This document shows, in pieces, positions 115 to 61,135 of a stretch of DNA of 64,000 nt. A program made the position numbers and the translations under genes. Origin of the DNA: Acetobacter oeni (GTDB lineage: Bacteria > Pseudomonadota > Alphaproteobacteria > Acetobacterales > Acetobacteraceae); the NCBI RefSeq assembly GCF_011516825.1, contig NZ_WOTA01000010.1, positions 62,001 to 126,000 of the forward strand. Direction: 5' to 3'. Position 1 is the first letter of the stretch; each line of letters starts with the position of its first letter. The notes below the pieces were generated by a model. The model did not search any database. It worked only from the letters and a program-made list of their open reading frames with translations, and was not told the DNA's origin.

Positions 115-133
115 GGTCAGCTCCTGTCGACGT

Positions 134-171
134 GAAAAAAAAAGGCGCGCGGGCCGGAAGGCCCGGCGCTC
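134..171 (-). terminator. Rho-independent terminator downstream of the DegP-like protease gene
   Basis: Read on the minus strand, a GC-rich hairpin (GCCGGGCC, short loop, GGCCCGCGC) is followed directly by a run of about nine T (the A-run at 135-143 on the plus strand). It lies between the protease gene and infC, so it should end the protease transcript and separate it from infC. Confidence 0.8.
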
Positions 172-310
172 ATAAGGTTCCGGATACAGTATGTGCGTAA
201 ATGGACACGCAAGATCAAGCGTTCCCGTCATGCTTCACACGCGATCAGCTATGCGAAAATCGCCCGGCAGCCCGGATATGGTAACAAGGTCGTGTTAATG
301 AGTCACTTTT

Positions 311-1492: not shown

Positions 1493-1644
1493 CAGCGGGC
1501 TTCGGGTCGTCGGAGAGTATTCGGTGGCATCAGCGGGGTGCAGTTCTCATAACGAAAAGATAGTGTCTGATCATAACACGAATGAAGCGCAATGCCCCAC
1601 GGCGGCGCGGAGACTGTTTCCACGGGCGCTGTGTCCCTGACTCC

Positions 1645-4275
1645 TCACCGTTTTGGGGCTTTGCCGGGCTTTCCGCCTGGGGTCCGGGGCGGGCGTGGGG
1701 CGGGCGGTTCGGCGACGGCGGGGTTTTCGGGCCAGTCATGGCGCGGGTAGCGTCCGCGCATGTCGCGTCTCATATCGGGCCAGCCGCCTGTCCAGAAAGC
1801 CGCCAGGTCCGCTGTCAGGGCCTGGGGGCGTCCGGCGGGTGACAGGAGCGCCAGCCGGAGCGGCACCTGACCGCCGGCGAGACGGGGCGTTTCGATCGTT
1901 CCGTAGAAGACCTGTGCTCTGGCGGCGGCGATCGGGACGGGTTCGGTGTAATCTATTTTCACGCGACCGCCTTTCAGCGCCAGTTCGGTCGGGAGATCGC
2001 GATCCAGTGCGACGAGATCGGCGTGGGTCAGGCGGGCGCGCAGGAGGGCGGCGAGGTCCAGTTCCTTCAGCCCGGCGAGTGTGGTGAGCCCGGCCAGCCA
2101 GGGCGGGAGCCAGTCTCCGGCGGTGGCGGCGAGCGCCTCGTCCGACAGGTCGGGGAGGTTTTCGTGTCCGGGGAGGACGCGTTTCAGGGCCACCCGCGCC
2201 TGGAACTGGCGGGCGGTGTCTGTCCAGGTGAAAGCGGTCTGAAGCGACGCGGCGGCCTGGGCCAGGAGCAGGCTTTCCGCGTCCTCGCTTTTCAGTGTTT
2301 CCGTGCGGTCACGCAGCACGAGAGTGCCGATTCTGAGGCGGCGGCGGGCCATGACGGAGCCGGTCACGGTGTCCAGCGCGGTTTCCACCTGTTCCGTGGC
2401 CCGTTTCAGCAGCGCGTCCGGCAGGGCATCGGGGTCGAGCGGGGCGGCGAGGCGAATTTCGGCGCTTTTCCGGAGAAACAGCGAGGCGACGGCGAGGAGG
2501 CGCTGATCGGCGAGACGGTCCGCGCGGCCTGTTCGGGCGCTTCCGCCGCCGGAGAGGCGGAAGCTGCCGGATTCGCCGCGTCCCTGGGCGATGCGGTCCG
2601 GGAAGCCGGCGGCGATGAGGGCGGCGGCGTCTCCGATGGGCGGCAGGTTGGCGGGCAGGCGCAGACGGCGGCGGAACTGTCCGGCGGCCTGTCTGATCCG
2701 GGCCAGCGCACCACGATCGGCGTCCGGGTGGTCGCCACCGGCGATCAGGTCGAGCCGGAGGGCGATGTCGGCGGGCGGGATCGGGGGCGGTCCGCCACGT
2801 GCGCCGCCCGGGCGGGGACGCAGCGGGTCGCGTTCTTCAAGCAGAGCGGCGAGGTTGGCGGCAAGGGCGGCTTCGGGCGGGGTCCGGGCGGCGAGCAGGA
2901 GGGCGGCGAGGCGCGGGTGGGTACCCAGCGCCGCCATGCGTCGTCCGGCTTCCGTTGGTTTGCCCTCCGTATCCAGCGCACCGAGGAGAACGAGCAGGTC
3001 GCGGGCGGCGGCGAGGCCTCCGGCGGGGGGCATGTCGGCGAACCGCAGGGAGGTGGCCTCGCCGCCCATCGCCTCGCGCCAGAGGCTGGTGGCCAGAGCG
3101 AAATCGGAGAGGTCGGCGTCGAGAATTTCCGGGCGGTCGTGCAGCGCCATTCCGCGTCCGGTGGCTTCCGTCCAGAGGCGGATGCCCAGACCGGGGGCCT
3201 CGCGTCCGGCGCGGCCTGACCGCTGTGTGGCGGCGGCGCGGGAAATTCGCATGGTTTCCAGCCGGGCCAGTCCGGCGCCGGGGTCGAAGCGGGGGGCGCG
3301 ACGGAAGCCGCCGTCGATGACGATCCGCACGCCGGGGACGGTGAGGGAGGTTTCGGCGATGGAGGTGGAGAGGATGACCCGTCGGCGGCCGTCCGGTTCG
3401 GGGGCGAGGACGCGGGCCTGCTCACCGGGCGGCAGTTCTCCGTGCAGCGGCAGGACGAGGGCCGGGACGCCGTCCAGGAGTTGCGCGGTGCGGCGGATTT
3501 CGCCGGTGCCGGGGAGGAAGACGAGGAGGTCGCCTTCGGTTCCGGACAGGGTCTCGCGCACGGTTTGTGCCGCTGCCTGTGGGAGGTCGCGGGCGGAGGC
3601 GAGATCGCGTTTCGCGTGGCGCACCGTGACGGGGAACTGGCGACCCTGGCTTTCGAGCACGGGCGCGCGCATGAGGTCGCACAGGGTTTTTGTGTCGGCT
3701 GTGGCGGACATGGCCAGCAGGCGCAGATCCGGGCGGAGGTCCTGCTGGAGGTCGAGCGCGAAGGCGAGGGCGAGATCTGCGTCCAGGGAGCGTTCGTGGA
3801 TTTCGTCGAAGATGACGCAGGCGACATCGTCCAGCATCGGGTCTGACAGGAGGCGGCGCAGGAAGAGGCCTTCCGTCACCACCTCAATCCGGGTTGCCTG
3901 TGAGACGGCGGATTCCAGCCGGGTTCTGAAGCCGACGGTCTGTCCGACCGGCTCGCCCAGCAGGCTGGCCATGCGCTGCGCGGCGGCGCGGGCGGCGAGG
4001 CGCCGGCGTTCCAGCATGATGATCCGGCTGCGTTCCGGGCGCCATCCGGCTCCGAGCAGGACCAGCGGGGCCAAGGTTGTTTTGCCCGCGCCGGGCGGGG
4101 CCACGAGGACGGCGTTTGGCGTCTGCTCCAGTGAGGCGGCGAGGGCGGGCAGGCAGGCCCGCACGGGCAGGTCGTCGTCCGGGGCGGACATGAGGGCCGC
4201 GACCGTGGCGGCGGGGCCGGAGGGGGAACCGGAGGTCATGGGCGGGGTTATGACCCGGTCAGGGCGGGACGACAA
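1645..4275 (-). CDS. hrpB: ATP-dependent helicase HrpB (DEAH/DExH family)
   Basis: The 876-residue protein has the layout of HrpB, a DExH-box superfamily 2 helicase of uncertain physiological role, possibly RNA-related. Walker A is GAGKTT at residues 62-67 and the Walker B box is DEIH at 157-160. Further motifs follow: SATAD (motif III), STSIAETSLTVPGV and QRSGRAGR (motif VI), then the HA2-like and HrpB C-terminal regions. The length fits the family (about 820-880). Two in-frame ATGs lie within the first 30 codons, so the true start could be slightly shorter. The long open frames on the opposite strand are a product of high GC content. Confidence 0.93.
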   Translation of the reverse strand: MSSRPDRVITPPMTSGSPSGPAATVAALMSAPDDDLPVRACLPALAASLEQTPNAVLVAPPGAGKTTLAPLVLLGAGWRPERSRIIMLERRRLAARAAAQRMASLLGEPVGQTVGFRTRLESAVSQATRIEVVTEGLFLRRLLSDPMLDDVACVIFDEIHERSLDADLALAFALDLQQDLRPDLRLLAMSATADTKTLCDLMRAPVLESQGRQFPVTVRHAKRDLASARDLPQAAAQTVRETLSGTEGDLLVFLPGTGEIRRTAQLLDGVPALVLPLHGELPPGEQARVLAPEPDGRRRVILSTSIAETSLTVPGVRIVIDGGFRRAPRFDPGAGLARLETMRISRAAATQRSGRAGREAPGLGIRLWTEATGRGMALHDRPEILDADLSDFALATSLWREAMGGEATSLRFADMPPAGGLAAARDLLVLLGALDTEGKPTEAGRRMAALGTHPRLAALLLAARTPPEAALAANLAALLEERDPLRPRPGGARGGPPPIPPADIALRLDLIAGGDHPDADRGALARIRQAAGQFRRRLRLPANLPPIGDAAALIAAGFPDRIAQGRGESGSFRLSGGGSARTGRADRLADQRLLAVASLFLRKSAEIRLAAPLDPDALPDALLKRATEQVETALDTVTGSVMARRRLRIGTLVLRDRTETLKSEDAESLLLAQAAASLQTAFTWTDTARQFQARVALKRVLPGHENLPDLSDEALAATAGDWLPPWLAGLTTLAGLKELDLAALLRARLTHADLVALDRDLPTELALKGGRVKIDYTEPVPIAAARAQVFYGTIETPRLAGGQVPLRLALLSPAGRPQALTADLAAFWTGGWPDMRRDMRGRYPRHDWPENPAVAEPPAPRPPRTPGGKPGKAPKR

Positions 4276-4333
4276 TCTCGGGGGATGGTTCGGGGGCTTT
4301 CCGGGCGCGTCGGGGCGGGGTGTTTTTCGGGGG

Positions 4334-4475
4334 CTCTGTTCGCGTTAAGTACGACGACTTTATCTCAGGGCGTTGCCCTGAAACCCACCAGAGGCCGGGC
4401 CTTTGGAACCCTGTTTATATCATCAACAAATCGGGGTGCAGGGGCCTGCGGTTCCTGCCGGGTTCGGGCAGAGCC
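4334..4475 (+). repeat. Dispersed hairpin repeat, copy 1
   Basis: This is one of five related intergenic elements of about 140 bp (others near 16755, 24236, 41980 and 51783). The core contains CTCAGGGCgTTGCCCTGAAA, which folds as CAGGGC/GCCCTG, followed by CCACCAgAGGCC and GGCCTTTGG (a second palindrome), and a 3' part ending CGGGCAGAGCC. It fills most of the gap between hrpB and the dsbD-like gene, which are divergent, and may therefore lie in the promoter region of the latter. It carries no open reading frame of its own. Confidence 0.75.
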
Positions 4476-4606
4476 TCTGGCCGGAACTGATCCTGTGGAA
4501 AAATCACGTATCGACAGTTAGGGCGGACAGAGCCTTTCAGGTGCAGGTGCGGGGCACCGCCCGGACCCGGGCAAAGGCACCTTGTTGCCGATCACGGGGG
4601 AACGAT

Positions 4607-6820
4607 ATGCTCTCTGTTCGCTTCGTCCCGCCCCGGTATAGAGTCCCGCCCCTTCCCTGTTTCCTCTCTTTTCGCAGGACATCCGCCTTGCGCCAGACCG
4701 CAGTTTCTTTCCGTCGTCTTTTTTCTCTTTGCAGCGTTCTGCCGGCTGTCATCTGTCTGCTGCTGGCCGTGTCCGGGCCGGTGCGGGGCGCGGAGAGCGA
4801 GGCTGTCACCTCCGAACGCGACACCGTGACGCTTGTCAGTGACAGTGACACGGTTCAGCCGGGGCATTCCATCCGGTTCGGGCTGCTGCTGCATCTCCGG
4901 CCGACATGGCACACGTACTGGCGCAATCCGGGCGATGCCGGGGAGGCGCCGACGCTGGTGGTGACGCTTTCGGCGGCGGCATCCGGGAAGGCCGATGCCA
5001 TTGACTGGCCGACGCCGAGACGGCTGCCGGACGGGCCGCTGATGTCGTATGGCTATACGGGGGATGTGCTGCTTCCGGTCAGTCTCACGCCGGGCGCGGG
5101 TCAGGCGGAGGCCGGCGCTGTTGCGGTGACGGCACATGCGGAGTGGCTGGTCTGCGCGGCGGTCTGCGTGCCGGAGGAGGGGGATTTCCACCTTACTCTG
5201 GGCGTCGGACCTGTGGCGCCGTCCGCGCAGGCGCCGTTATTTGCGCGGGCCGATGCGGCGCGTCCGCTTCCGTCGCCGTTTGCCGCCACGATAGCGCCGG
5301 ACGGGAGGCTCGGGCTGTCCGGTCCGGGGCTTTCGGCGCGGGATGTGAGCGATGCGTGGTTTATTCCGGATACGCCTGGTGTCGTCAGTCAGATCGCGCC
5401 GCAGAAGCTGACCATCGGGGCGGGTCATCTGACGCTGGCTCTTAAGCCGCAGGATGCTTTTCATGCGGGCGCGTCGCTTGGCGGTGTTGTCGTGCTGCGG
5501 GATGCGGCGGGGCAGGAGAGCGCGCTGAACATCCTGGCGCGGCCTGTGCCGGGGGGCGCGGTGGCTTCGGCCCGTCCGGCTGTCGCGCCGGATGCGGGCG
5601 AAGTGCCGGGCGGCTGGTTTCAGCTTGCCGTGCTGGCGTTTCTGGGCGGGGCCATTCTGAATCTGATGCCCTGCGTCTTTCCGGTTCTGGCAATGAAGGC
5701 GCTTGCCGTCGTGCGGATGAGCTCGGAAGAGGCCCGGGTAAAGAGTGCTCTGGCTTATACGGCCGGGGTGCTGGCCACTTTTGCCGTGCTGGGAGGCGCC
5801 ACGCTGATGGTGCGTCATGCGGGACTGTCGGCGGGCTGGGGGTTTCAGTTTCAGTCCGAAGGGTTTGTCGCGGCCATCTGCTGGCTGCTTTTTGCCGTCT
5901 CGCTCGGGATGCTGGGGATTTTCGAGTTGCCGGTGATCGGTGCGGGGCAGTCGCTGATTTCCCGCAGTCACGGGTTGCTGTCGGATTTTCTGACGGGGCT
6001 GCTGGCTGTTCTGGTGGCAACGCCCTGCACGGCGCCGTTTATGGGTGCGGCGATTGCGGGGGCGCTTGCGGCGCCTCCGGTTTTCGCCCTGAGCATTTTT
6101 CTGAGCATGGGGCTCGGGCTGGCCAGTCCTTATCTTTTGCTGGCTGTCATTCCCGGTTTCGGGCGGCTGTTGCCGAAGCCGGGCGCGTGGATGGATCTGT
6201 TCCGGCAGGTTCTGGCGTTTCCAATCCTGGCGACCTGTGTCTGGCTTGCCTGGGTTCTGACGCGGCAGGGCGGTGGGGACGCGACGCTTGTTCTTGGCGC
6301 GGGTCTGCTGGCGCTCGGTTTCAGCGGGTGGCTTGCGGTGACGGCCCGGTCGCGGGCGTCTTACAACGTGACGCGGGGGTTGCGCGTGGCGGCGTTGCTG
6401 GTGGCTCTGGCGCCGGTTGCGCTGCTGCCGCTGCTGCCTTCCGGGGCTTCATCGCCGGCTTCCGCGACGACTGGCGGTGTGGCGGCGGATGCCGGGGCTT
6501 TTTCGGCGGAGCGGCTGGCCGCGCTCCGGGCGGAGGGGCGGCCTGTTTTCATCGACATGACGGCGGCCTGGTGCATCACCTGTCTGGTCAATGAGCGTGT
6601 CACGCTGAACAGCGCGCGGGTGCGGGCTGCTTTTGCTCAGCACGGGGTTGTTTATCTCAAGGGTGACTGGACGAACCGGGACGGTGCGATCACGGCGTTT
6701 CTGCGGGCGCATGGGCGCGACGGAGTACCGCTGTATGTTTATTACGCGCCGCATGGGGAGGGGCATGTGCTTCCGCAGATTCTGACGCCGGAGCTGGTGG
6801 CGGGGGCTGTTGGCGGCTGA
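4607..6820 (+). CDS. DsbD/ScsB-type thiol:disulfide interchange protein
   Basis: The protein carries reducing power from the cytoplasm across the inner membrane to periplasmic thiol proteins. The order of domains is a signal peptide (hydrophobic stretch before GPVRGAES), an N-terminal periplasmic DsbD domain (CAAVCVPEEG motif), a multi-span transmembrane core with the redox pair Cys356 (NLMPCVFP) and Cys474 (ATPCTAPF), and a C-terminal thioredoxin-like domain with WCITC (Cys656/Cys659). The 737-residue length assumes the ATG at 4607 behind GGGGGA. An in-frame TTG at 4688 behind AGGA would place the signal peptide right at the N-terminus and is an equally good start. No cytochrome c maturation genes are adjacent. 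Confidence 0.9.
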   Translation: MLSVRFVPPRYRVPPLPCFLSFRRTSALRQTAVSFRRLFSLCSVLPAVICLLLAVSGPVRGAESEAVTSERDTVTLVSDSDTVQPGHSIRFGLLLHLRPTWHTYWRNPGDAGEAPTLVVTLSAAASGKADAIDWPTPRRLPDGPLMSYGYTGDVLLPVSLTPGAGQAEAGAVAVTAHAEWLVCAAVCVPEEGDFHLTLGVGPVAPSAQAPLFARADAARPLPSPFAATIAPDGRLGLSGPGLSARDVSDAWFIPDTPGVVSQIAPQKLTIGAGHLTLALKPQDAFHAGASLGGVVVLRDAAGQESALNILARPVPGGAVASARPAVAPDAGEVPGGWFQLAVLAFLGGAILNLMPCVFPVLAMKALAVVRMSSEEARVKSALAYTAGVLATFAVLGGATLMVRHAGLSAGWGFQFQSEGFVAAICWLLFAVSLGMLGIFELPVIGAGQSLISRSHGLLSDFLTGLLAVLVATPCTAPFMGAAIAGALAAPPVFALSIFLSMGLGLASPYLLLAVIPGFGRLLPKPGAWMDLFRQVLAFPILATCVWLAWVLTRQGGGDATLVLGAGLLALGFSGWLAVTARSRASYNVTRGLRVAALLVALAPVALLPLLPSGASSPASATTGGVAADAGAFSAERLAALRAEGRPVFIDMTAAWCITCLVNERVTLNSARVRAAFAQHGVVYLKGDWTNRDGAITAFLRAHGRDGVPLYVYYAPHGEGHVLPQILTPELVAGAVGG

Positions 6821-7185
6821 TCGGGGGCTGGCGATCCATTATGTGTCAGTTCCCGTCTGTCGCGCGGTCATACGAATAACGATTACAGCGGGCACTGCCG
6901 TATCATTATCTGATTGTCAGACAGTCTGCCTTGCGAACTCACGACCCCGGGCAGAATGATAGTTCCGCGAAACATAGCGACATCGGAGATCAGTGAAACG
7001 CTCGTGTATTTCTTCGTGAGCGTCTCGAAACTTTGCAATATCTTCGGTCTGAGAATGAAAAATCATCAGCGTCGGTTACTGTGGCCAGAGTTGTTGGAAA
7101 ACTGAAAATTACAGCAGACTGACAAATATGATGGTGAAAGCTGTCGTGTTTCAAATGAGATAATTGCCTTTATTTTCGCCGGAAT
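6821..7185. other. Intergenic region without a recognised feature
   Basis: This gap lies between the convergent dsbD-like and mntR genes and is visibly richer in A and T than the flanking genes. A 63-codon plus-strand open frame exists here but has no convincing ribosome binding site and no recognisable sequence. I see no strong terminator. Confidence 0.5.
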
Positions 7186-44524: not shown

Positions 44525-45634
44525 TCAGTTCACCGCTCTGATTGCCGCGATCAGTTCACCGACATGCTCCGGTGGCGTGGTCGGCAGCACGCCATGGCCG
44601 AGATTGAAGACGTGGGGACGCCCCCGGCCGGCATCGCGAATGGCAAGCGCTTCTTTCAGCATGGACTGACCGCCTGCCAGAACGGACACGGGATCGAGAT
44701 TGCCCTGGAGCACGAGATCCGGGCTGACCTGTCCGGCGATGGTGGCGAAATCCGCGCCGGTATCGAGGGCCATGACGTCCACGCCTGTTTCACGCGCGTA
44801 TTCCGGCGCCATTCCGCCTGCCAGACGTGGAAAACCGATGACTGGCACGCCCGGGTGACGCCGCTTCAGCTCGCTGACGATCTGCCGGGTTGCGTCGATC
44901 ACATGGCGTCTGAATTCCAGTGGCGGCAGCAATCCGGCCCAGGAATCGAACAGCATCACGGCCTGCGCGCCGGCGTCGATCTGAGCCGACAGCATATCGG
45001 TGGTGGTTTCGGTCAGAAGGGCGATCAGACGGTCGAAAAGCTTCGGGTTCTGATAGGCCATCAGCCGGGTCTGCACGAACTCTTTTGAGCCGCCGCCATC
45101 GACCATGTAGCAGGCCACCGTAAACGGCGCGCCGGCGAAACCGATCAGCGTGACCGTATCGGCCTGAGCGGCTCCGACGGGCTCCCTTAACGTCCGGCGC
45201 AACCGGGATAATGTTTCCATGACCGGGGCTGTCATGTCCGGAACCCGTTTTGGATCGAGCCTGTTCAGGTCGGATTCGTTCCTGATTGCTCCCAGAACCG
45301 GACCGCGATTTTCAATGAATTCGAGAGACTGTCCCATTGCCCAGGGCAGGATGAGGATATCCGAAAACAGGATAGCGCCGTCCATGGCGAAGCGCCTGAT
45401 CGGCTGAAGAGTGATTTCCGTGGCGATGTCGGGCGTCATGCAACGGGTCAGGAAATCGGCTTTTTCACGGAGGGCGCGAAATTCGGGGAGGAACCGTCCG
45501 GCCTGTCTCATCAGCCAGACCGGAGGCGGCCACATTGCTTCACCCTTCAGAGTGCGGAGGAGCCGTCTGTGTTCGTCTGTCCCGAGTTTCGTGGTCACTG
45601 TTTGTCCGCCGGTTTTTTCGATCAGTGTGCTCAT
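44525..45634 (-). CDS. hemE: Uroporphyrinogen decarboxylase
   Basis: HemE removes four carboxyl groups from uroporphyrinogen III to make coproporphyrinogen III. The 369-residue protein has WLMRQAGRFLPEFRALR and DAILFSDIL-type blocks (MDGAILFSDILILPWAMG), GFAGAPFTVACYMV and the C-terminal NLGHGVLPTTPPEHV. In alphaproteobacteria hemE commonly borders the replication origin, and here its 5' end faces the presumed oriC. Confidence 0.97.
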   Translation of the reverse strand: MSTLIEKTGGQTVTTKLGTDEHRRLLRTLKGEAMWPPPVWLMRQAGRFLPEFRALREKADFLTRCMTPDIATEITLQPIRRFAMDGAILFSDILILPWAMGQSLEFIENRGPVLGAIRNESDLNRLDPKRVPDMTAPVMETLSRLRRTLREPVGAAQADTVTLIGFAGAPFTVACYMVDGGGSKEFVQTRLMAYQNPKLFDRLIALLTETTTDMLSAQIDAGAQAVMLFDSWAGLLPPLEFRRHVIDATRQIVSELKRRHPGVPVIGFPRLAGGMAPEYARETGVDVMALDTGADFATIAGQVSPDLVLQGNLDPVSVLAGGQSMLKEALAIRDAGRGRPHVFNLGHGVLPTTPPEHVGELIAAIRAVN

Positions 45635-46000
45635 CTCTAAACAAGAAAAGAGAATAAAGAAATGTTGAGTTGATAGTAGGGCCTGTGAATGACGGGGTAC
45701 CCGCTGTTCCGAAAATGTACCCCATGTTTCCCCAGATGTGTACAGAATGAATGTCTTTGAAAAAACACTGTTTTTCTGAGTTATCCGGAATTACCGCCCA
45801 GGAGGCTGTGTACAACTCACCGCGTTTGGGGTTGTACCGGTTGTCCACGTTACTCGGTACCCTTCGCGCTGCTTTCCCGTACTATCCCCGTGTACCCCAT
45901 CGGCGCACAAAGTACCCGCTACAGTACTCACCGAAGTACTCACGGGCCGCAGATGCGGATGTGTTTTCGAGTCGGGTTATTTTTGAAAGGCGTAAAAGGA
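45635..46000. other. Putative chromosomal replication origin (oriC)
   Basis: This gap between divergent hemE and maf is the conserved place of oriC in Caulobacter and relatives. It holds an A/T- and purine-rich stretch next to hemE (45638-45668), DnaA-box-like 9-mers (TGTGTACAA at 45807-45815, which is the complement of TTGTACACA; TGTGTACAG at 45737-45745; TTGTCCACG at 45841-45849; TTATCCGGA at 45781-45789), a GANTC methylation site (GAGTC, 45969-45973) and a dense array of GTAC motifs described as a finding. ParAB and parS lie 6-10 kb away. The assignment is by gene context and motifs. Confidence 0.75.
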
Positions 46001-46073
46001 ATGATCGAATCGAGTGCCGACGAAAATGAAGTACTGACGCCTTTGAAGGCCCTTATTAGTACAGACCTTGTAC
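45697..46073. repeat. GTAC-motif array spanning oriC and the maf start
   Basis: GTAC occurs 14 times here: at 45697, 45717, 45740, 45810, 45834, 45857, 45879, 45892, 45912, 45924, 45936, 46031, 46059 and 46070. By chance about 1.5 would be expected. Several sit in longer repeats: TGTACCCCAT (twice), GTACCCGCT (twice) and AGTACTCAC (twice, 12 bases apart). Confidence 0.85.
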
Positions 46074-46660
46074 TTGCGAGTGGATCTGCTGCGCGGGCGG
46101 CTTTGCTGACGGGCAGTGGTCTTCCGTTCACGGTGCAGGCTGCTGAGATTGATGAGCGTGTTCTTAAAGAGGCCGGACGCGCTGCCGGTGACACGCCCGG
46201 GACGGTTGCGCTGCGGCTGGCCGCAGCCAAGGCGCTGGACGTGTCCGGCAGGCATGCTGATCCGGACGCGGTGATTACAGGCGCTGATCAGATGCTCAGT
46301 TGTGAAGGTGTCTGGTTCGACAAGCCCGGCTCACACAGTGAGGCGCGCGATCAGCTGATGTTTCTCCGTGGCCGGACGCATTATCTGCATTCCGCTGTCG
46401 TGCTGTGTCGGGGCGAGAGTGTTTTCTGGCAGCATGTCTCGACCTGTGCGCTGACCATGCGGGCTTTCTCCGACACTTTTACTGATATGTATTTTGCGCT
46501 TGATGGCGGCGCGTGTCTGTCCTGCGTGGGCGCTTACCGGGTGGAGGGTCCCGGGGTTCATCTGTTTGAACGGATTGAAGGCGATTACAGCGCGATTCTG
46601 GGGCTTCCGATGCTGCCGTTGCTTCAGGCTTTGCGTGCGCATGGCATTCTTGCCGGGTAA
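46001..46660 (+). CDS. maf: Maf-family nucleotide pyrophosphatase
   Basis: Maf proteins hydrolyse non-canonical or modified nucleoside triphosphates. From ATG 46001 the 219-residue protein has LVLASGSAARAALL (a variant of the usual LASxSPRR), the acidic active-site ITGADQMLSCEG, AFSDTF and GAYRVEGPGVHLFERIEGDY. The N-terminal 20 residues are an extension typical of origin-proximal alphaproteobacterial Maf. A GAATC site and three GTAC motifs lie in its first 25 codons. In many relatives aroE, coaE and dnaQ follow; here a tRNA and a degraded island do. Confidence 0.9.
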   Translation: MIESSADENEVLTPLKALISTDLVLASGSAARAALLTGSGLPFTVQAAEIDERVLKEAGRAAGDTPGTVALRLAAAKALDVSGRHADPDAVITGADQMLSCEGVWFDKPGSHSEARDQLMFLRGRTHYLHSAVVLCRGESVFWQHVSTCALTMRAFSDTFTDMYFALDGGACLSCVGAYRVEGPGVHLFERIEGDYSAILGLPMLPLLQALRAHGILAG

Positions 46661-51949: not shown

Positions 51950-54103
51950 CTACTTACTTTCGGGCTCTGCGAGCTGACGCAGGAGATAAACGGCTTCCAG
52001 TGCCTGCTCATGGGCTACTTCCTGAGCGTTGACCGTTCCGGAATGTCCGCCTTCCGTGTCTTCGTAATAGTAAAACGGTGAGCCGATGTCCTCCAGCCGC
52101 GCGGCAAACCGTCGGGCATGAACGGGGCCGACGCGGTCATCGGTTGTGGAGGTGAAGATGAAGGGCGTGGGGTAATGCACACCCGTCCGGAGGTGCTGGA
52201 GCGGCGAAATCGACTCCAGAAAACGGCGTTCGTCCGGGACATTCACCGACCCGTATTCATCGGCCCAGGAGGCTCCGGCGGCCATTGTTTCGTAATGCAG
52301 CATATCCAGCAGCGGCACTCCGATTACAGCCGCGTTCCACAGATCCGGGTGCTGTGTGAATTCCACGCCCATGAGCAGGCCGCCGTTTGAACGTCCGCGT
52401 ATTCCGAGATGGGACGCAGATGTAATGTGTCGGGAAATCAGATCGCGGCCCACGGCGGCAAAATCGTCGTAAACCCGTTGTCTGTGCGTTTTTCGTCCCG
52501 CTTCATGCCAGGCCGGGCCGAATTCGCCGCCGCCCCGGATATTCGCAACGGCATAGACGCCGCCCTGATTCAGCCAGAGGCGACCGGTTTCCGGTGAATA
52601 GGTGGGTGTGTAAGAGGCCTGGAAGCCGCCGTAAGCCGTGAGAAGCGTTGGGTGTGATCCGTCCGCCACCATGCCTTTCGGACGCACGAGGAAATAGGGA
52701 ATCCGTGTGCCGTCGGAGGATTTTGCCCAGAGTTGTTCGACCGCGAGATTGCTCGCGTCGAACTGGGCCGGGATCTGACGGATTTTTTCCGCTCCGGCCT
52801 GGCTGGCTCCGACGAGCCACAACTGCGGAGGATCGGTATATCCTTCAACGGTCAGGAAGGCTGCGTCAGAATTCCGGTCGGCGTCGGCAATATGAACGGT
52901 CGACAGATCGGGCAACGGCAGAACAACGCGGGACCATATTTTGCCCGGTTTCCCGGATGACCGCAGGACCATTGCGCGACCGCGGACATTATCGAAATAA
53001 GTCACGACAACTGTATTTCGCGTTACGGCGACTTCATCAAGCGCTTCCGTCGCGGCGGGCGTGTATAAAATTTCCACGTCCTGATCCGGGGCGGAAGGAT
53101 CAACGGAAACCAGACTGCCAGAGGGGATCGTCCGGGAGGCCGCCGGTGTCCAGGGTTCATTAAGCGACAGGATCAGTCTGCCATGCAGCATGCCCTGCAG
53201 ATCGATGTGTTCAGGCAGGGCGAGCCAGCGAAGCCCGCCCGGGCTGGCACCATGAAAGGCGGTGTCCATGCCTTTGAGAACAGCAAACCGGTTTGTAAAA
53301 AACGTGGGTGAACGGTGGATGATCAGAAGGCTGTTGCTATCTCCGTCGGTGAGTGTTTCAGGATCGACGGCGACATCGGTTTTTTCGCCACGGGCGATTT
53401 CGATGGCCTGATCGAGCGGCTGTCCGCGAACCACGCGCCGGACCACGAACGGATAACCGGAGGTTGTCAGCGTAGCTCCGGTGCCGTCCCAGTCACGGGA
53501 TACAAGCAGCGTATCGCGGTCCACCCAGGCGGCTGTCTGTTTGGAGCGCGGCAACACGAAGCCATTCAGAACGAAAAGTCCTGCCTGGGTATCGAATTCC
53601 CTTAGTGTATCGGCATCTTCGCCACCCTCTGACAGGCTGACAAGGCAAAACCGTTCTTTTGGTTCCAGGCATCCGGCGCCCTGGAATATCCAGTTTTCAT
53701 GCTCCCGTTTCGCGAGTGCATCGACGTCCAGCTTTGTCACCCAGCCGGTCAGTTCCTGCCGGTAAGAAGCGAGTGTGGTCTGGCGCCAGATTCCTCTCGG
53801 ATGATGATCATCCTGCCAGAAATTCCAGACATGATTTCCGAGGAATCGTGGTTTTGCAAGCCGTTCATGACTTTGCCTGGCGGCCAGCGCGCTGGCATAA
53901 AAATCCGGATAGCGGGGATCTGACTGCAGCACGTCGAATGTTTTTTTATTTTGTGCGGCGACCCAGTCCAGAGCTTCCGCTCCGTGCACATCTGAAAGTG
54001 CCGCCGATGAAATGAGGGGATGACCGGGTGCGGCGCGTGCGGTCGCCGAGACAAGCATTCCGGATGTCAGAATCGCAAGCGGCCACATATGAAAAGCGCG
54101 CAT
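51950..54103 (-). CDS. Exported S9A prolyl oligopeptidase family protein
   Basis: The 717-residue enzyme has a signal peptide (MRAFHMWPLAILTSGMLVSA through ARA), a seven-bladed propeller-like N-terminal half, and an alpha/beta-hydrolase half with nucleophile Ser572 in GRSNGG, the block LLTAYGGFQASYTP, Asp in TDDRVGPVHA and His in EGGHSG. It cleaves short peptides, probably after proline, in the periplasm. The start MRAFHM is chosen because GAGG lies five bases upstream; a start ten codons earlier is possible. Confidence 0.9.
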   Translation of the reverse strand: MRAFHMWPLAILTSGMLVSATARAAPGHPLISSAALSDVHGAEALDWVAAQNKKTFDVLQSDPRYPDFYASALAARQSHERLAKPRFLGNHVWNFWQDDHHPRGIWRQTTLASYRQELTGWVTKLDVDALAKREHENWIFQGAGCLEPKERFCLVSLSEGGEDADTLREFDTQAGLFVLNGFVLPRSKQTAAWVDRDTLLVSRDWDGTGATLTTSGYPFVVRRVVRGQPLDQAIEIARGEKTDVAVDPETLTDGDSNSLLIIHRSPTFFTNRFAVLKGMDTAFHGASPGGLRWLALPEHIDLQGMLHGRLILSLNEPWTPAASRTIPSGSLVSVDPSAPDQDVEILYTPAATEALDEVAVTRNTVVVTYFDNVRGRAMVLRSSGKPGKIWSRVVLPLPDLSTVHIADADRNSDAAFLTVEGYTDPPQLWLVGASQAGAEKIRQIPAQFDASNLAVEQLWAKSSDGTRIPYFLVRPKGMVADGSHPTLLTAYGGFQASYTPTYSPETGRLWLNQGGVYAVANIRGGGEFGPAWHEAGRKTHRQRVYDDFAAVGRDLISRHITSASHLGIRGRSNGGLLMGVEFTQHPDLWNAAVIGVPLLDMLHYETMAAGASWADEYGSVNVPDERRFLESISPLQHLRTGVHYPTPFIFTSTTDDRVGPVHARRFAARLEDIGSPFYYYEDTEGGHSGTVNAQEVAHEQALEAVYLLRQLAEPESK

Positions 54104-54486
54104 AAAGCCTCGGAAATCAGTTTTTCTTTGCATTTATCTCATTCTGTCGAGAATGGGACTTCTTTTATACATACAATAAAACATATCCGGAATCCGTTGT
54201 CTGCAATGGGATCGGACTGGTGGGTTATGGCGCTGATCAGTCAGAATCGGTCTGTTAAGTTAATTCAGGGTATAGAAAAGTAATGTTGCATATAACATAA
54301 ATAATATATTAACAAAATAAGAAAATATTTTAGCATGTCGGTAGTTAATTTTGTATGCGACTAAATGAATCAAGATTATTTTTTAACTTAAAGCGTAACT
54401 TTTTTTTATACAATTTGTTCGATGTAATCGAATGTTTCCGAATAGTCGGATATTACAGAATGCGATAAAAAGCCGGAGCTCAGATA
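54104..54486. other. A/T-rich regulatory region of the chemotaxis operon
   Basis: About 380 bases between divergent genes, with very A/T-rich parts (54280-54420). The chemotaxis promoter should lie here, but several -10-like and -35-like hexamers are possible and I cannot choose one. No small gene is convincing. Confidence 0.5.
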
Positions 54487-56001
54487 ATGTTCTTATCGTG
54501 GTTACAAACCGAAGCATCGGTTCGTACAAAAATAAAAACTATTATCGGATTTCTTGCTATTATTGCTATATTGCAGTTTTGCTTAGGGCTGGTTGCGGCA
54601 TATTCACCGAATTTTGCGCAGAAAGCACAAATATTTATTATTTTTAGCGGATTTTTTGAGGTTGCTGCCACAATCATAGCGATAGTGACTTCTGTACAGG
54701 TCATAGCTGTTCCCATCGAGAGAATAACGTCTGCGACTGAACAGATTGCTGCGGGTAAATTTGATGCGGTGATCCCTTGCCATTCATACCATGACTGCGC
54801 CGGGCGGCTGGCAAAAGCTCTGACGACTTTTAGGGACCATTCGGCCGAGAATACCCGGGTCCAGGAAGAAGCATTGCTGGTTTCCCGGACTTCTGAAGTG
54901 CGTCAGAAAAAACTGGCGGAGGAAAGCAGGCAGCAGAGGGAATGGACGGAAGAGCTTGTCGAAAATCTGATCCGCGGCATGCAGCGTTTGTCTTCCGGCG
55001 ACCTGAGTTTTCGATATACGGAACCTTTCCGTCAGGAGTTTGAACAGTTCCGAACTGATTTCAATGTAACGGCCGATCGTCTTTCCGATACGCTTGGTAA
55101 GGTAGCTGCCAGTGTCTCGACAATTGAGTCGGGCTCGTCTGAAATTGCCCTTGCCTCGGATGATCTTGCTCGCCGTACAGAACGACAGGCGGATAATCTT
55201 GGAAAAACATCCGGTTCTGTCAATACAGTTACAACGGGCGTGCAGAAAACTGCACAGGCGGCTCTCGATGCGCGGAAAGCAGCCGGCGGAGCGCGCGAAC
55301 AGGCTGCTGAATCATCTTCGGTTGTGCAGTCAGCCATATCAGCGATGCATGAAATTGAAGATTCATCGAAAAAAGTGGCAGATATTTTAGGTGTTATTGA
55401 TGAAATAGCTTTCCAGACAAATCTTCTGGCGCTGAACGCGGGTGTGGAGGCTGCCCGTGCCGGTGATGCGGGGCGTGGTTTCGCTGTCGTTGCGACCGAA
55501 GTCCGTTCGCTGGCTCAGAGATCAGCGACATCCGCCAAGAATATCAAAGAGCTTATTTCTCTTTCCGGGCGCCAGGTTTCAAAGGGTGTAACACTGGTAA
55601 CGCAGACAGGTGATGCTCTCTCAAAAATATCACAGAATATCGAAACAATTTCGGATCTGATCGGATCGATTTCATCGTCGGCGCAGGAGCAGGCGGAAAG
55701 TCTGACGCAAATTAATTCAGCAATCAGCGAGATGGATCAGACCACACAGCAAAACGCTGCGATGGTCGAAGAAACGACAGCTGCCAGTCATAATCTGACC
55801 CGGGAAACAAAAGATCTGGCCGAAGCTGTATCGCAGTTTCGTATCAGAGGCCCCGTCGAAAATATGGCCCGTGCCACAACAATGACAAGAGCTTTGCCAC
55901 TCAGACCGGTTAATGAAACGGCTTGCTTCGGTCGGAATGATGCTGCGCCGCAGATTGCCGCAAGGCACTCGTCATCTGACGACGGGTGGGAAGACTTCTA
56001 A
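54487..56001 (+). CDS. Methyl-accepting chemotaxis protein without a periplasmic sensor domain
   Basis: The 504-residue receptor has two close membrane spans (about 18-40 and 47-70) with only a few residues between, so there is no periplasmic ligand domain. HAMP-like segments follow ([20 protein letters not shown] and [18 protein letters not shown]). The signalling tip is canonical ([39 protein letters not shown]), binding CheW and CheA. The C-terminus DDGWEDF is an xWxxF pentapeptide, the docking site of CheR and CheB. First gene of the che operon. Confidence 0.94.
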
Positions 56002-56039
56002 GGAGCTGTTGCCGTGCATATCAGGAAGAAAGAACGGAT

Positions 56040-56411
56040 ATGACAAAGACAATTCTCGTGGTCGATGACTCGCGTACTATGCGTGACATGCTGCGTCGCA
56101 CGCTTGAAGGAGCAGCCTATCATGTCGTGGATGCTGTGGACGGAGTTGACGGGCTCGAAAAACTGGATGCTCTGACTTCGTTGCCGGCGGCAATCATTAC
56201 CGACATTAATATGCCGCGCATGGATGGATATGGATTTATTGACGAGGTCCGGTCGAAGAAAAGAGACTGTCGCGTTCCTGTCCTTGTGCTGACAACAGAG
56301 ACGAGCGCTGAGAAAAAAAATCGGGCAAAAAAAGCTGGAGCAACAGGCTGGATAGTGAAGCCATTTGAGCCGTCCGTTCTTATTTCAGCGATCCAACGGG
56401 TAACCGGATAA
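56040..56411 (+). CDS. cheY: CheY-type response regulator (first copy)
   Basis: A 123-residue single receiver domain with acidic pocket Asp9/Asp10, phosphoryl acceptor Asp55 (ITDINMPRMDG), Thr86 and Lys107 (IVKPFEPS). It lacks an output domain. Its position right after the mcp gene and before cheA corresponds to cheY1 in S. meliloti, where the equivalent protein acts as a phosphate sink; the role here is inferred. The codon for Met1 overlaps no other gene; 38 bases separate it from mcp. Confidence 0.93.
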   Translation: MTKTILVVDDSRTMRDMLRRTLEGAAYHVVDAVDGVDGLEKLDALTSLPAAIITDINMPRMDGYGFIDEVRSKKRDCRVPVLVLTTETSAEKKNRAKKAGATGWIVKPFEPSVLISAIQRVTG

Positions 56412-56417
56412 GTAATT

Positions 56418-58352
56418 ATGGATGATCTGGACAGTATCAAGCCAATTTTCTTTGAGGAATGTGGCGAACAGCTAACGGAACTGGAGCGTGCTCTGGCCTG
56501 CCTTGAAAATGGCGAGGCTGGTCACGACACAGTTAACGCAGCATTCAGGGCCGTGCATTCGATCAAAGGAGGCGCGGGATCTTTCGGGATGACCGAACTT
56601 GTCCGGTTCGCTCATGTTTTTGAAACTGCACTGGATCTCCTGCGATCAGGTAAAATTGAGGCTTCACCGGCTGTTCTGCGCGTATTTCTTTTTGCGACTG
56701 ATATTCTGAGTGATCTGACGGGCGCTGAACAGGGCGGACCGTCTGTTGACAAACAAAGATCTCTGGAATGCAGTAAGGCTCTTGAATCGCTTTCAGAAAT
56801 TTCTGCTACGGTAAAGGCTGAGTCGGAAGAGCTCATAACGCAGGTTACAACAGAAGAAGATATTCCGGACGGGTTTACTCCTGTCCCCTTTGTTTTTGAC
56901 GAGGATGTGTCAGATAAGCTGGCTGCTTTAGTCAGTGACGAAGGATTTGAGATCTTTTCGGAAACCCCTGATAGTGCCGGATCTGCGGCAGGACATTCAT
57001 TGCAGGCAGACAGCCCCCTGGATTCCGTCACTGTGGAAGCGGGGTACGAAAAAGCAGCTGAAAAAAACAGTTCAGTGAGCAGCACTTCTGTAAAATCGAG
57101 CGTAGCTTTACCTGCCAGTATTCGCGTCGACGTCGATCGTATAGATCGGGTGATGGATCTGGTGGGAGAACTGGTGATCGGTCAGTCAGCACTGAGAGAA
57201 GCCTTTGATAACAGTAACGCAAAACATCAGGACGAAGCCGGTTCTTCTGCTCTGACTGATGCAATGAACGAAATTGAACAACTGAGCCGTGATATTCAGG
57301 ATGCGGTGATGGCGGTACGGGCGCAGCCGCTAAAGACTGTTTTCCAGAGAATGCAGCGTGTTGTCAGAGAAACATCTCTTATCGCTCATAAGAATGTTCA
57401 TCTTATCATTGAAGGTGAGGATACAGAGGTTGACAGGACGCTCATAGAACGTCTGACGGACCCGTTAACCCACATGCTTCGTAATGCGATTGATCATGGC
57501 ATCGAATCTGAGGAAAAGCGTATCGCCGCCGGAAAATCTCCTGGGGGTACGATTACTCTGTCTGCTGCTCACAGATCAGGGCGAATTGTCATTATCATAA
57601 AGGATGATGGCGGCGGTATTGATCGCAGGCGTGTAAGAGCAATTGCCGAGAAGAAAGGTATTATTTCATCAGACGCTGTTCTTACAGATTCTGACATTGA
57701 TAATCTTATATTTTCTCCGGGGTTTTCAACGTCTGAGACCATCACTGACCTGTCGGGTCGTGGTGTGGGAATGGATGTCGTCAAGCAGGCTATACAGGAT
57801 CTTGGCGGACGTGTTTCTATTCAGTCCGAGACGGGGAAAGGATCAGGTTTTATTCTGAGTCTGCCTCTGACTCTGGCGGTCATGGATGGTATGCTTGTTA
57901 CGGTATCAGGGCAAATTCTGATACTTCCGGTGTCCTGTATTCTAGAAACAATGATTCTTGACAGGAAGAGTATATTTCATGCTGTGGATAATGTTCCACT
58001 CATGTGTGTCCGTGGCAATTTTATTCCGTTGATTGAAATTGGCAGCGCTCTTGGATTTTCGTCGGATCACATATGCGGTTCTGAAAAGGTTGTCCTGATT
58101 GTTGAAGACGACAACGGAAAGATGACGGCTCTTGTGGCGGACAGTATTGATGGGCAGATGCAGATCGTCATAAAGACGATCGAAAAAAATTACCGACCAA
58201 TCTATTGTGTTTCAGCAGCTACAATACTTGGAAGTGGTCAGGTTGCGCTGATTCTGGATGTTCCTGCCGTTACTGCAACAACGGAAAAATCCGGAAATTC
58301 TTCATGGCTGAAAGATAATAATGCCTTATCTGAGAAGTTTGCAGCGGAGTGA
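56418..58352 (+). CDS. cheA: Chemotaxis histidine kinase CheA
   Basis: The 644-residue kinase has a P1 phosphotransfer domain with His47 (AVHSIKGGAG), a long acidic linker (about 120-235) where a P2 domain is not recognisable, P3 dimerisation (IRVDVDRIDRVMDLVGELVI), the P4 ATPase (LTHMLRNAIDHGIESEEKR, DDGGGID, GRGVGMDVV) and a C-terminal CheW-like P5. It phosphorylates the two CheY proteins and CheB. Six bases follow the cheY stop. Confidence 0.96.
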   Translation: MDDLDSIKPIFFEECGEQLTELERALACLENGEAGHDTVNAAFRAVHSIKGGAGSFGMTELVRFAHVFETALDLLRSGKIEASPAVLRVFLFATDILSDLTGAEQGGPSVDKQRSLECSKALESLSEISATVKAESEELITQVTTEEDIPDGFTPVPFVFDEDVSDKLAALVSDEGFEIFSETPDSAGSAAGHSLQADSPLDSVTVEAGYEKAAEKNSSVSSTSVKSSVALPASIRVDVDRIDRVMDLVGELVIGQSALREAFDNSNAKHQDEAGSSALTDAMNEIEQLSRDIQDAVMAVRAQPLKTVFQRMQRVVRETSLIAHKNVHLIIEGEDTEVDRTLIERLTDPLTHMLRNAIDHGIESEEKRIAAGKSPGGTITLSAAHRSGRIVIIIKDDGGGIDRRRVRAIAEKKGIISSDAVLTDSDIDNLIFSPGFSTSETITDLSGRGVGMDVVKQAIQDLGGRVSIQSETGKGSGFILSLPLTLAVMDGMLVTVSGQILILPVSCILETMILDRKSIFHAVDNVPLMCVRGNFIPLIEIGSALGFSSDHICGSEKVVLIVEDDNGKMTALVADSIDGQMQIVIKTIEKNYRPIYCVSAATILGSGQVALILDVPAVTATTEKSGNSSWLKDNNALSEKFAAE

Positions 58353-58357
58353 GCGGG

Positions 58358-58828
58358 ATGAATATCGGACGTGAATATACAGGTAGCGAAAAGACCGGAA
58401 AAGTTATTTCTTTTGCGGTAGGGGATCAGGAATACTGTGTAGATATTCTGAGTGTTCGTGAAATCAGAGGATGGACGGAAGCGACTCCTTTGCCGGGTAC
58501 ACCCCGCTGGGTTCGTGGTGTAATCAATCTGCGGGGGATCATCCTTCCGGTCATTGATATGCGCGTCATGTTGCGGATCGGAAGCGAGCGTCCGATATCC
58601 CGCGAAGTTGTGATGGTCGTGGAGATCGGAGAAAAAATTTCCGGACTGCTTGTTGATAAGGTTTCAGATATTATTGATGTGGAACCGACTATGGTTCAGG
58701 AGGTGCCCTCATCGATATCAGGGGATACGTCTGAAATTATAAGCGGGTTGATAGCGCTCGACGGGCGGATGATTGGTATTCTGAATCTGGACATCGTTGC
58801 CGAGCAGATTATGGAAACAGCTGTATGA
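58358..58828 (+). CDS. cheW: Chemotaxis coupling protein CheW
   Basis: A 156-residue scaffold linking receptor and CheA. Family blocks: ISFAVGDQEYCVDILSVREI, RWVRGVINLRGIILPVIDMR and VDKVSDIIDV. ATG 58358 with GGAG eight bases upstream is preferred over a GTG at 58349 that overlaps the cheA stop. Confidence 0.95.
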   Translation: MNIGREYTGSEKTGKVISFAVGDQEYCVDILSVREIRGWTEATPLPGTPRWVRGVINLRGIILPVIDMRVMLRIGSERPISREVVMVVEIGEKISGLLVDKVSDIIDVEPTMVQEVPSSISGDTSEIISGLIALDGRMIGILNLDIVAEQIMETAV

Positions 58829-59676
58829 CATTGGCATCTGCCCTTGTCCGGTCAGGAGAGTTTCCTTATACTGACGAAGATTTTAAAAAAATTAAAGAAA
58901 TAGTTTATAAACACTGTGGAATATTTCTTGGGGAAACAAAAAAATCGCTGGTGTATTCCCGGGTTGCCCGTCGCATAAGGGAGTGCGGGCTTTCTGATTT
59001 CCGGGGTTATATAAGCTACGTAACCGGCGCGGGAAAAGATACAGAGCTCCCGAAAATGATTGATGCGATAACAACAAATGTAACTAATTTTTATAGAGAA
59101 AAGCACCATTTCGAGCATTTGTCTCAGGTCGTTTTACCGGACGCTATGGCGATGGCAAAAAACGGGGAGAAAATACGTTTCTGGTCTTCCGCCTGTTCGT
59201 CCGGACAGGAAGCCTATTCGATAGCGGCCTGCGTAATGGATAATTTTCCCGATGCTGTAAACTACGATATTAAAATTCTCGCGACTGATATTAATATTGA
59301 TGTGATAAAGCGCGGAAACGAGGGACTTTATTCTGCTGAGGAATGTCGCGATCTCTCTGATGCGATAAAAAATAAATGGATGACGGAAACGGAAGAAGGA
59401 TTCCGTTTCCATAAATCATTAAAGAGGCTTGTAACATTTCGACGTCTGAATTTGCTTGAATCCTGGCCGATGACGATTCCGTTTTCAGCCATTTTCTGCA
59501 GGAATGTCGCAATATATTTTGACAGAGAAACGCAGGATAAACTGTGGCTGCGTCTGGCGGGTCAGCTTAGGCCGGGTGGCTATCTCTACATTGGCCATTC
59601 AGAAAAAATTCCGAAAGAGCTGATATCTTCCCTTCACCCATGTAACACACCAACGACTTACAGGAAGGACGCGTAA
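58825..59676 (+). CDS. cheR: Chemotaxis receptor methyltransferase CheR
   Basis: CheR methylates receptor glutamates using SAM. The 283-residue protein has an N-terminal helical domain, TNVTNFYREKHHFEHL, the SAM loop FWSSACSSGQEAYSIAACV, ATDINIDVI, and CRNVAIYFDRETQ followed by GYLYIGHSE. Overlaps cheW by four bases (ATGA). The WEDF tail of the linked receptor could recruit it. Confidence 0.96.
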   Translation: MTLASALVRSGEFPYTDEDFKKIKEIVYKHCGIFLGETKKSLVYSRVARRIRECGLSDFRGYISYVTGAGKDTELPKMIDAITTNVTNFYREKHHFEHLSQVVLPDAMAMAKNGEKIRFWSSACSSGQEAYSIAACVMDNFPDAVNYDIKILATDINIDVIKRGNEGLYSAEECRDLSDAIKNKWMTETEEGFRFHKSLKRLVTFRRLNLLESWPMTIPFSAIFCRNVAIYFDRETQDKLWLRLAGQLRPGGYLYIGHSEKIPKELISSLHPCNTPTTYRKDA

Positions 59677-60743
59677 TGAATAAGAAAATTCGTGTTCTGA
59701 TAGTTGATGATTCAAAAACGGGCCGGGCGTTTATTGCGGCAGCCCTGGAACGTGATCCTGATATCGAGATACTGGGTACTGCGGGTGATCCATTCGAAGC
59801 GCGCGATATTATCATGCGTGATCAGCCGGACGTCATTACGCTTGATGTCGAGATGCCAAATATGAACGGTCTTCAGTTTCTTGAGAAGATCATGCGCCTG
59901 AGGCCTATTCCTGTCGTAATGGTCTCAGGCCTTACGGTCCGGGGCGCCGATGTTGCTATTGAAGCATTGCAACTGGGGGCTTTTGACTGTTTCCCGAAAG
60001 CTTCGGGGGTATCCGGTATTGATGCTTATGCGGGTTTGATTCCGATTGTGAAGGCTGCGGCGGTAAGCGGTGTCGCTCGCCGGCCTTCATTGCGTCCGGC
60101 GATGCCGCGGCGGGATGTTCCTGTGCGCCCGATTGCAGATGGTCGCGCGGATGCTGTCGAAATCATCGCTATCGGTGCCTCGACGGGAGGTGTGGAGGCG
60201 CTGGGGGAGATATTGCCGTCTCTTCCGGAGACAATTGCTCCGGTTGTTATAACCCAGCATATGCCGGCACTTTTTACGACAAGTCTTGCTGCCCGACTTA
60301 ACCGGTTGTGCAGGATTGAAGTGACCGAAGCCAGGGATGGCATCATTTTGCAGCCGGGGCATGCTTATATCGCGCCGGGGGGACAGCACCATCTGCATGT
60401 GCGTCAGGTCGCCGGGAGACTCATGGCGTCTCTCGATGCCGGTGAGCCGATCTCGGGACATCGTCCGTCGGTTGACGAACTTTTTTCGTCTGTTGCCAGA
60501 GCTGCGGGCAGGCGGGCTGTCGGAGTTATTCTGACCGGCATGGGTCGTGACGGGGCGGCCGGTCTGCTTGCCATGCGGGAGGCGGGCGGGCGAACAATCG
60601 GGCAGAGTGAGGGAACGTGTGTGGTTTACGGTATGCCCCGCGCCGCAGTTGAACTGGGAGCTGTCGAAAAGACACTGTCGCTTGGAAATATTGCAAATGC
60701 GCTTATATCGTTTGAGATGTCTGAAACAGGAGTGACTCACTAA
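59676..60743 (+). CDS. cheB: Chemotaxis response regulator protein-glutamate methylesterase CheB
   Basis: CheB demethylates receptors after phosphorylation. The 355-residue protein has a receiver domain with Asp57 (ITLDVEMPNMNG) and a C-terminal esterase domain with Ser169 (GASTGGVEA), His195 (TQHMP) and Asp292 (GMGRDGAAG). TAATG junctions join it to cheR and cheY, showing translational coupling. Confidence 0.97.
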   Translation: MNKKIRVLIVDDSKTGRAFIAAALERDPDIEILGTAGDPFEARDIIMRDQPDVITLDVEMPNMNGLQFLEKIMRLRPIPVVMVSGLTVRGADVAIEALQLGAFDCFPKASGVSGIDAYAGLIPIVKAAAVSGVARRPSLRPAMPRRDVPVRPIADGRADAVEIIAIGASTGGVEALGEILPSLPETIAPVVITQHMPALFTTSLAARLNRLCRIEVTEARDGIILQPGHAYIAPGGQHHLHVRQVAGRLMASLDAGEPISGHRPSVDELFSSVARAAGRRAVGVILTGMGRDGAAGLLAMREAGGRTIGQSEGTCVVYGMPRAAVELGAVEKTLSLGNIANALISFEMSETGVTH

Positions 60744-61135
60744 TGCCATCCGCATCCGCTATAAAGGCGCTGATTGTTGACGATCAGACGTCTATCCGGA
60801 CGATTCTGCGGAACAGTCTTGCTCAGATTGGCATCGTTCAGGTTTCAGAGCGTAAAAACGGGAAAGACGCAGTCGACTATCTTTCCGATAATTCGGTTCA
60901 TCTGATTATTTCTGATTTTAATATGCCTGAGATGAATGGTCTTGAATTGCTGAAGGCTGTCAGGGGAAATCCTAAAACGCAAAAGACGGCTTTTATTATT
61001 CTGACCGGTGAAGCAAATAAGGATCTGGTGCAGGAAGCCGTTAAAGGGGGGGTAAACAATTTTCTTGCAAAACCCTACACCGTTGCAAAACTGAAATCCG
61101 TTCTGGAAGCGGTTTTCGGGACGATAGCGGCATAA
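60743..61135 (+). CDS. cheY: CheY-type response regulator (second copy)
   Basis: A 130-residue receiver with Asp13/Asp14, phosphoryl acceptor Asp58 (ISDFNMPEMNG), Thr88 (ILTGE) and Lys110 (LAKPYT). It resembles enterobacterial CheY more than the first copy does and is the likely motor-binding regulator, by position equal to S. meliloti cheY2. Start overlaps the cheB stop (TAATG). Confidence 0.94.
   Translation: MPSASAIKALIVDDQTSIRTILRNSLAQIGIVQVSERKNGKDAVDYLSDNSVHLIISDFNMPEMNGLELLKAVRGNPKTQKTAFIILTGEANKDLVQEAVKGGVNNFLAKPYTVAKLKSVLEAVFGTIAA

Follow-up and report, generated by a model that had tools for sequence, protein, structure and literature searches.

A conserved GTAC array at the probable replication origin of Acetobacter oeni and its relatives co-occurs with a putative orphan DNA methyltransferase

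Next to hemE, the Acetobacter oeni chromosome carries a dense array of the palindrome GTAC that lies at what is very probably the replication origin, recurs with fixed spacing in other genera of the family, survives where the region has been rearranged and is accompanied, in every sampled genome that has it, by a second and shorter DNA methyltransferase, which we call MTase2. This co-occurrence suggests, but does not prove, that GTAC marks help to time DNA copying. We propose, with moderate confidence, that the array is part of oriC, that MTase2 methylates its GTAC sites to N4-methylcytosine (m4C) and that the mark controls initiation. The first-pass annotation had offered variant DnaA boxes or the site of another initiator or origin regulator; the best candidate regulator that we found, a DNA methyltransferase, was absent from its proposals.

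The array and its setting

The analysed window is a stretch of 64,000 nucleotides (64 kb) from a 4.1-Mb A. oeni assembly in 110 contigs (G000). All 14 GTAC tetranucleotides listed in the first-pass annotation were found, at 45697, 45717, 45740, 45810, 45834, 45857, 45879, 45892, 45912, 45924, 45936, 46031, 46059 and 46070, giving a span of 45697–46073 and a density of 37 per kb. The longer direct repeats that it had named are likewise present in the array, which contains TGTACCCCAT, GTACCCGCT and AGTACTCAC (12 apart), as well as TGTGTACAG and TGTGTACAA. The density is high against a chromosomal background: in 20 stretches of 20 kb from the one-contig chromosome of a same-genus relative (G161; 7.5 kb of the 400 kb masked), we counted 364 GTAC, or 0.9 per kb, making the array around 40 times denser. 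The entire window holds 63 GTAC, compared with 83 in dinucleotide shuffles. Two other parts of the window, 1–7000 (GC up to 0.72, with a marked AT skew) and 53000–61000 (GC down to 0.46), are possibly foreign or special regions.

The features of the region are as follows, with the strand given where one is assigned and GTAC conservation counted over 49 same-genus genomes, including G000.

44525..45634, minus strand: hemE, left neighbour of the putative origin region (TIGR01464, above cut-off)
45636..45686: AT-rich stretch, candidate duplex-unwinding element (67% A+T; first 30 bases 77%)
45684..45692, minus strand: DnaA-box-like TGTGAATGA, adjoining GTAC site 1; box kept in most outgroups read
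45697..45700: GTAC site 1, GGGGTACCC (49/49); corresponds to the lone origin GTAC of many array-less relatives
45717..45720: GTAC core site, ATGTACCCC (49/49)
45727..45734, plus strand: TTTCCCCA, candidate weak DnaA box by resemblance, read from the sequence
45740..45743: GTAC core site in TGTGTACA (47/49)
45781..45786, plus strand: TTATCC, DnaA-box-like core, from the sequence
45810..45813: GTAC core site in TGTGTACAA (49/49)
45834..45837: GTAC, variable site (4/49)
45841..45848, plus strand: TTGTCCAC, DnaA-box-like, from the sequence
45857..45860: GTAC core site (44/49)
45879..45882: GTAC core site, followed by TATCCCC at 45883–45889 (49/49)
45892..45895: GTAC core site, TGTACCCCA (49/49)
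45912..45915: GTAC core site (42/49)
45924..45939: two variable GTAC, at 45924 (14/49) and 45936 (11/49)
46001..46660, plus strand: Maf-like gene, right neighbour (NF002690, 208 bits; TIGR00172, 104 bits; both below cut-offs)
46031..46073: three variable GTAC inside maf, at 46031 (11/49), 46059 (5/49) and 46070 (6/49)

The element TTTCCCCA is similar to the weak W-box of DnaA in Caulobacter. ATG 46001 is a possible start of the Maf-like frame, which stays open back to GTG 45890, and a tRNA-Ala gene comes next after it. With the start at ATG 46001, the sites at 46031, 46059 and 46070 fall within the first 25 maf codons, as the first-pass annotation had it. Its further argument, that continuation into maf points to selection on DNA, is weak, because these three sites are not conserved; the extension is no conserved part of the array, and for the same reason we reject a maf coding feature.

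The hemE–maf gap is very probably oriC, of the alphaproteobacterial type located next to hemE, because the GC skew of the G161 chromosome changes sign around the array. In the 20 stretches sampled, skew turns from minus to plus between 3.42 and 3.60 Mb, bracketing the array at 3.56 Mb and placing the switch point near hemE; going from 3.60 Mb round to 1.71 Mb, all stretches have positive skew apart from one at 0.76 Mb that is slightly negative, and those between 1.90 and 3.42 Mb have negative skew apart from one at 3.23 Mb that is slightly positive. The window by itself gives a less clear picture: skew is slightly negative at 42–45 kb, positive past 45 kb, and mixed or positive further left. 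In another same-genus genome (G183), one contig end adjoins hemE and the array stands at the opposite contig end, an arrangement that rotation of the assembly to oriC would produce. The hemE–maf gap contains both an AT-rich stretch, whose counterpart averages 70% A+T over 77 loci, and DnaA-like boxes; boxes that strictly match TTWTNCACA are few (4 in 22 array segments, compared with 0.7 expected).

Conservation and distribution of the array

The sequence upstream of hemE was inspected in 48 other same-genus genomes, 51 other genomes of the family and then 38 further outgroups. Aligned to the window, 8 of the 14 sites are GTAC in at least 42 of the 49 same-genus genomes, and five of these (45697, 45717, 45810, 45879 and 45892) in all 49; the remaining six are GTAC in just 4 to 14. 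Mean identity to the window is 92% in the columns of the eight conserved sites and 63% in the other columns. The spacing of the core sites is fixed across the relatives that have the array, and a four-site signature built on it is present in 37 of the 160 genomes searched in the family, belonging to 24 of 102 genera, at a single place per genome (a second match in two genomes falls at the same place as the first). By comparison, a control with the reversed four-site pattern (CATG) gave 22 scattered matches in 18 of 160 genomes. The expectation of an origin-specific element, enriched in the syntenic gap of related species, is therefore borne out by conservation with fixed spacing, by the bracketing skew switch and by the low background. 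Conversely, a chance or compositional cluster without function is a very remote prospect, given the roughly 40-fold excess over the chromosome, the same spacing in 24 genera and the contrast between GTAC columns and those around them.

The signature also locates the array where the gene order has changed. In two genera (g32 and g101), the hemE–maf gap is devoid of the array, and the same array lies around 20–26 kb from hemE in all four genomes read, where it keeps its AT-rich flank and DnaA-like boxes. Judged from the hemE gap alone these genera would have been taken as losses, a reading that we rejected once the genome-wide pattern search found the array elsewhere. Because it stands away from hemE in two genera, the array is kept for its own sake; a control region of hemE or maf is unlikely, as it persists apart from both genes. 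Groups of three GTAC also occur outside the array in every genome searched (17/17 and 6/6); in G000, 8 of 13 overlapping triple-GTAC matches are inside it. One same-genus relative has a second group (L230; G171:C1:829408-829529), with five GTAC in about 120 bp, whose GTACCC and GTACAC contexts resemble the ones in the array.

DnaA boxes and a co-occurring methyltransferase

Across 22 array segments, each from a different genus, no tetranucleotide is as enriched as GTAC (235 observed and 39 expected from first-order Markov resamples; z 31), and the next palindrome, CATG, reaches z 5.8. Pooled over sites, the flanks of GTAC are weak, yet each site retains its own neighbours. Such a pattern, a strict palindrome of 4 bp set in loose flanks, would suit the target of a methyltransferase.

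The possibility that GTAC marks variant DnaA boxes, recognised by a DnaA whose specificity has shifted, draws on the overlap of some of them with box-like sequence, on the alternation of GTAC with TATCC-type cores and on the hemE–maf gap of the array-less g66 (L162; G066:C1:947470-949170), in which 14 perfect TTWTNCACA boxes, many of them in tandem, stand with no GTAC at all. The overlap noted in the first-pass annotation is real for some sites, with 34 of 235 GTAC lying in a 9-mer that differs from TTWTNCACA by at most one base, but most (201/235) are outside such boxes. Near-canonical boxes (≤1 mismatch) are moreover present alongside GTAC and are themselves enriched (87 compared with 14 expected in the 22 segments), and the DnaA recognition helix, RDHTTV, is identical in 30 of 30 genomes, 17 with the array and 13 without. 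With the helix unchanged and most GTAC outside boxes, we rejected variant DnaA boxes as the main reading and consider them improbable.

MTase2 is encoded in G000 outside the window (G000:C12:107400-108296) and recurs in 73 of 160 family genomes (E ≤ 1e-50). It is distinct from CcrM, its beta-class relative, which does not track the array: a PF01555 match of at least 200 bits, taken as CcrM, was obtained in all 40 genomes tested, whether or not they have the array, and that of G000 is a CcrM homologue (475 bits to PDB 6pbd). GANTC, the CcrM site, is likewise enriched in the 22 array segments (73 compared with 30 expected). MTase2 is probably of the N4-cytosine type, because its motif TSPPYN, invariant in 26 orthologues, is as in N4-cytosine enzymes of solved structure (TSPPF in PvuII, TSPPYN in the rotifer enzyme 8s9m), whereas the adenine enzymes CcrM and M.BceJIV have DPPY. 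The closest NCBIfam model is adenine-specific and gives MTase2 112 bits of a 292-bit cut-off, a score that the CcrM homologue equals. The fold predicted for MTase2, with a mean pLDDT of 71 and 95 of its 299 residues below 50, best matches PvuII, the rotifer enzyme, CcrM and M.BceJIV. In G000 and G184, MTase2 is flanked by genes for Tim44 and a di-haem peroxidase; it adjoins MltA and CCG-domain genes in G067 and G109. In the partly scanned neighbourhoods of G000, G184, G161, G067, G109 and G143, no restriction family was found and four open reading frames had no family. MTase2 thus appears to be an orphan methyltransferase, and its specificity would be for GTAC.

MTase2 is present in 37 of 37 genomes with the array, whereas only 36 of 123 array-less genomes have it (P = 3e-16 by genome and 9e-10 by genus, in tests that ignore kinship). 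Much of this association is at clade level, because phylogenetically independent pairs, compared for the GTAC at site 1, yielded 1 concordant pair, 6 ties and 0 discordant pairs (7 in all); further genes may also follow the array. Neither the array nor MTase2 is present in g66 and g30, and a loose search of G066 and G029 returned no MTase2 orthologue. In a DnaA tree of 30 genomes, both group with the array clade (support 0.987) and are not firmly inside it, so one loss, two losses and primitive absence are all possible.

Array-less relatives supply a further comparison. Many of them have a lone GTAC beside a box like CTGTGGATAACGGG, which was found in 23 of 25 sampled genomes with MTase2 and in 8 of 30 without; among those with a recognisable box (score ≥10), the counts were 23 of 23 and 8 of 29. 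These counts include G128, an 85% complete genome and one of the eight site-1 exceptions; a loose search of the other seven returned no MTase2 orthologue. In the gap as a whole, 19 array-less genomes with MTase2 had 33 GTAC in 500 bp, compared with 33 expected from composition, and 19 without it had 11, compared with 32 expected. Because outgroups with MTase2 show no GTAC cluster, MTase2 is more widespread than the array, and the outgroup counts are modest support. Among these 36 array-less genomes that have MTase2, hemE and MTase2 are known to share a contig in seven: they lie 5–9 kb apart in five (G010, G064, G067, G109 and G143) and far apart in G157 and G100. In array-less genomes without MTase2 (for example L283, L286, L293, L174 and L178), GGAGGCA, GGATGCA or GGACGCA often replaces GTACCC after the same DnaA-like box; these letters are possibly another origin motif.

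The chief rival of a methylation-controlled origin is that GTAC is the binding-site core of an origin-binding protein, a helper or repressor of initiation that works independently of methylation, with MTase2 tracking the array through shared ancestry. Such a protein would account for the fixed spacing of the core sites and for flanks conserved site by site, and it sits well with the 36 genomes that have MTase2 and no array and with the 8 of 30 that keep the site-1 GTAC in the absence of MTase2. It is harder to reconcile with the presence of MTase2 in every array genome and with the weakness of the pooled flanks, a strict 4-bp palindrome being short for a binding protein, and no candidate for such a protein emerged from these comparisons. 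We regard this alternative as less likely than a methylation-controlled origin.

A methylation-controlled origin and its known counterparts

In the methylation-controlled origin that we favour, the GTAC sites of oriC would be the target of the conserved orphan MTase2. As a fork leaves the origin, methylated GTAC sites would become half-methylated, and this state might be read by some protein or be felt directly by DnaA at neighbouring or overlapping boxes. Half-methylation would then delay or license the next start, following the logic of Dam and GATC in E. coli with other parts.

At the E. coli origin, a palindromic tetranucleotide, GATC, is clustered and methylated by the adenine methyltransferase Dam, SeqA acts with it, and a further cluster lies at the dnaA promoter. 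The Acetobacter array is similar in that a palindromic tetranucleotide is clustered at oriC and an orphan methyltransferase co-occurs with it, but it differs in the motif (GTAC in place of GATC) and in the enzyme, which appears to be of the N4-cytosine rather than the adenine type. The SeqA family, PF03925, matched none of 20 array genomes but did match the E. coli control, and the dnaA promoters read carry no GTAC cluster, with 0–2 GTAC in the 500 bp upstream in six array genomes and one outgroup. The role of Dam and GATC at E. coli oriC is treated in the accessible portions of PMC5390034 and PMC4752239.

A broader precedent is provided by Blow et al. 2016, who, in the portions of PMC4752239 available, describe clusters of orphan-methyltransferase motifs at putative origins: GATC, TTAA in Arthrobacter, CTCGAG in Nocardia and a haloarchaeal m4C motif (CATG in the text, CTAG in a figure legend). 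The GTAC array fits this pattern in its distribution, as a conserved origin cluster whose presence goes with an orphan methyltransferase, and its putative mark would be m4C, as in the haloarchaeal case. It differs from the clusters described there in its motif, its bacterial group and its fixed spacing; and whereas their motifs were read from methylomes, ours is deduced from genome sequence. Neither GTAC nor Acetobacter occurs in the main text of PMC4752239 as available. Enzymes of the proposed specificity have been described: M.RsaI, an enzyme of another alphaproteobacterium, places m4C within GTAC (PMC6256690, available portions), and archaeal HG10 and HG18 are GTAC m4C methyltransferases, listed as orphans that persist in some archaea (PMC10609329, available portions). 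We set these beside MTase2 by their described specificity, not by sequence, and M.RsaI, unlike the putative orphan MTase2, serves a restriction system, RsaI, as its methylase. A term search of the accessible text of PMC4686929 and PMC5493696 returned nothing relevant, and in the openly licensed literature we recognised no paper describing this GTAC array.

For the family, we tentatively extend the proposal as follows. A large clade, probably the acetic acid bacteria, may possess an m4C replication-timing system in which an orphan GTAC methyltransferase acts on a fixed-geometry oriC array, beside CcrM and GANTC and with a reader unrelated to SeqA. The array may have grown from a single GTAC at the AT-rich stretch and, in some lineages, have disappeared along with the enzyme.

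Detailed understanding of how methylation controls origins comes mainly from Dam and SeqA in the gammaproteobacteria. If the proposal is true, it extends the orphan-methyltransferase origin clusters described in the available portions of PMC4752239, and it is testable in easily grown strains. The four-site signature already serves to locate oriC in members of the family in which the origin no longer lies beside hemE. A methylation-controlled origin in these bacteria, with a different palindrome, probably a different base mark and no SeqA, would be a sign that this logic has evolved on more than one occasion.
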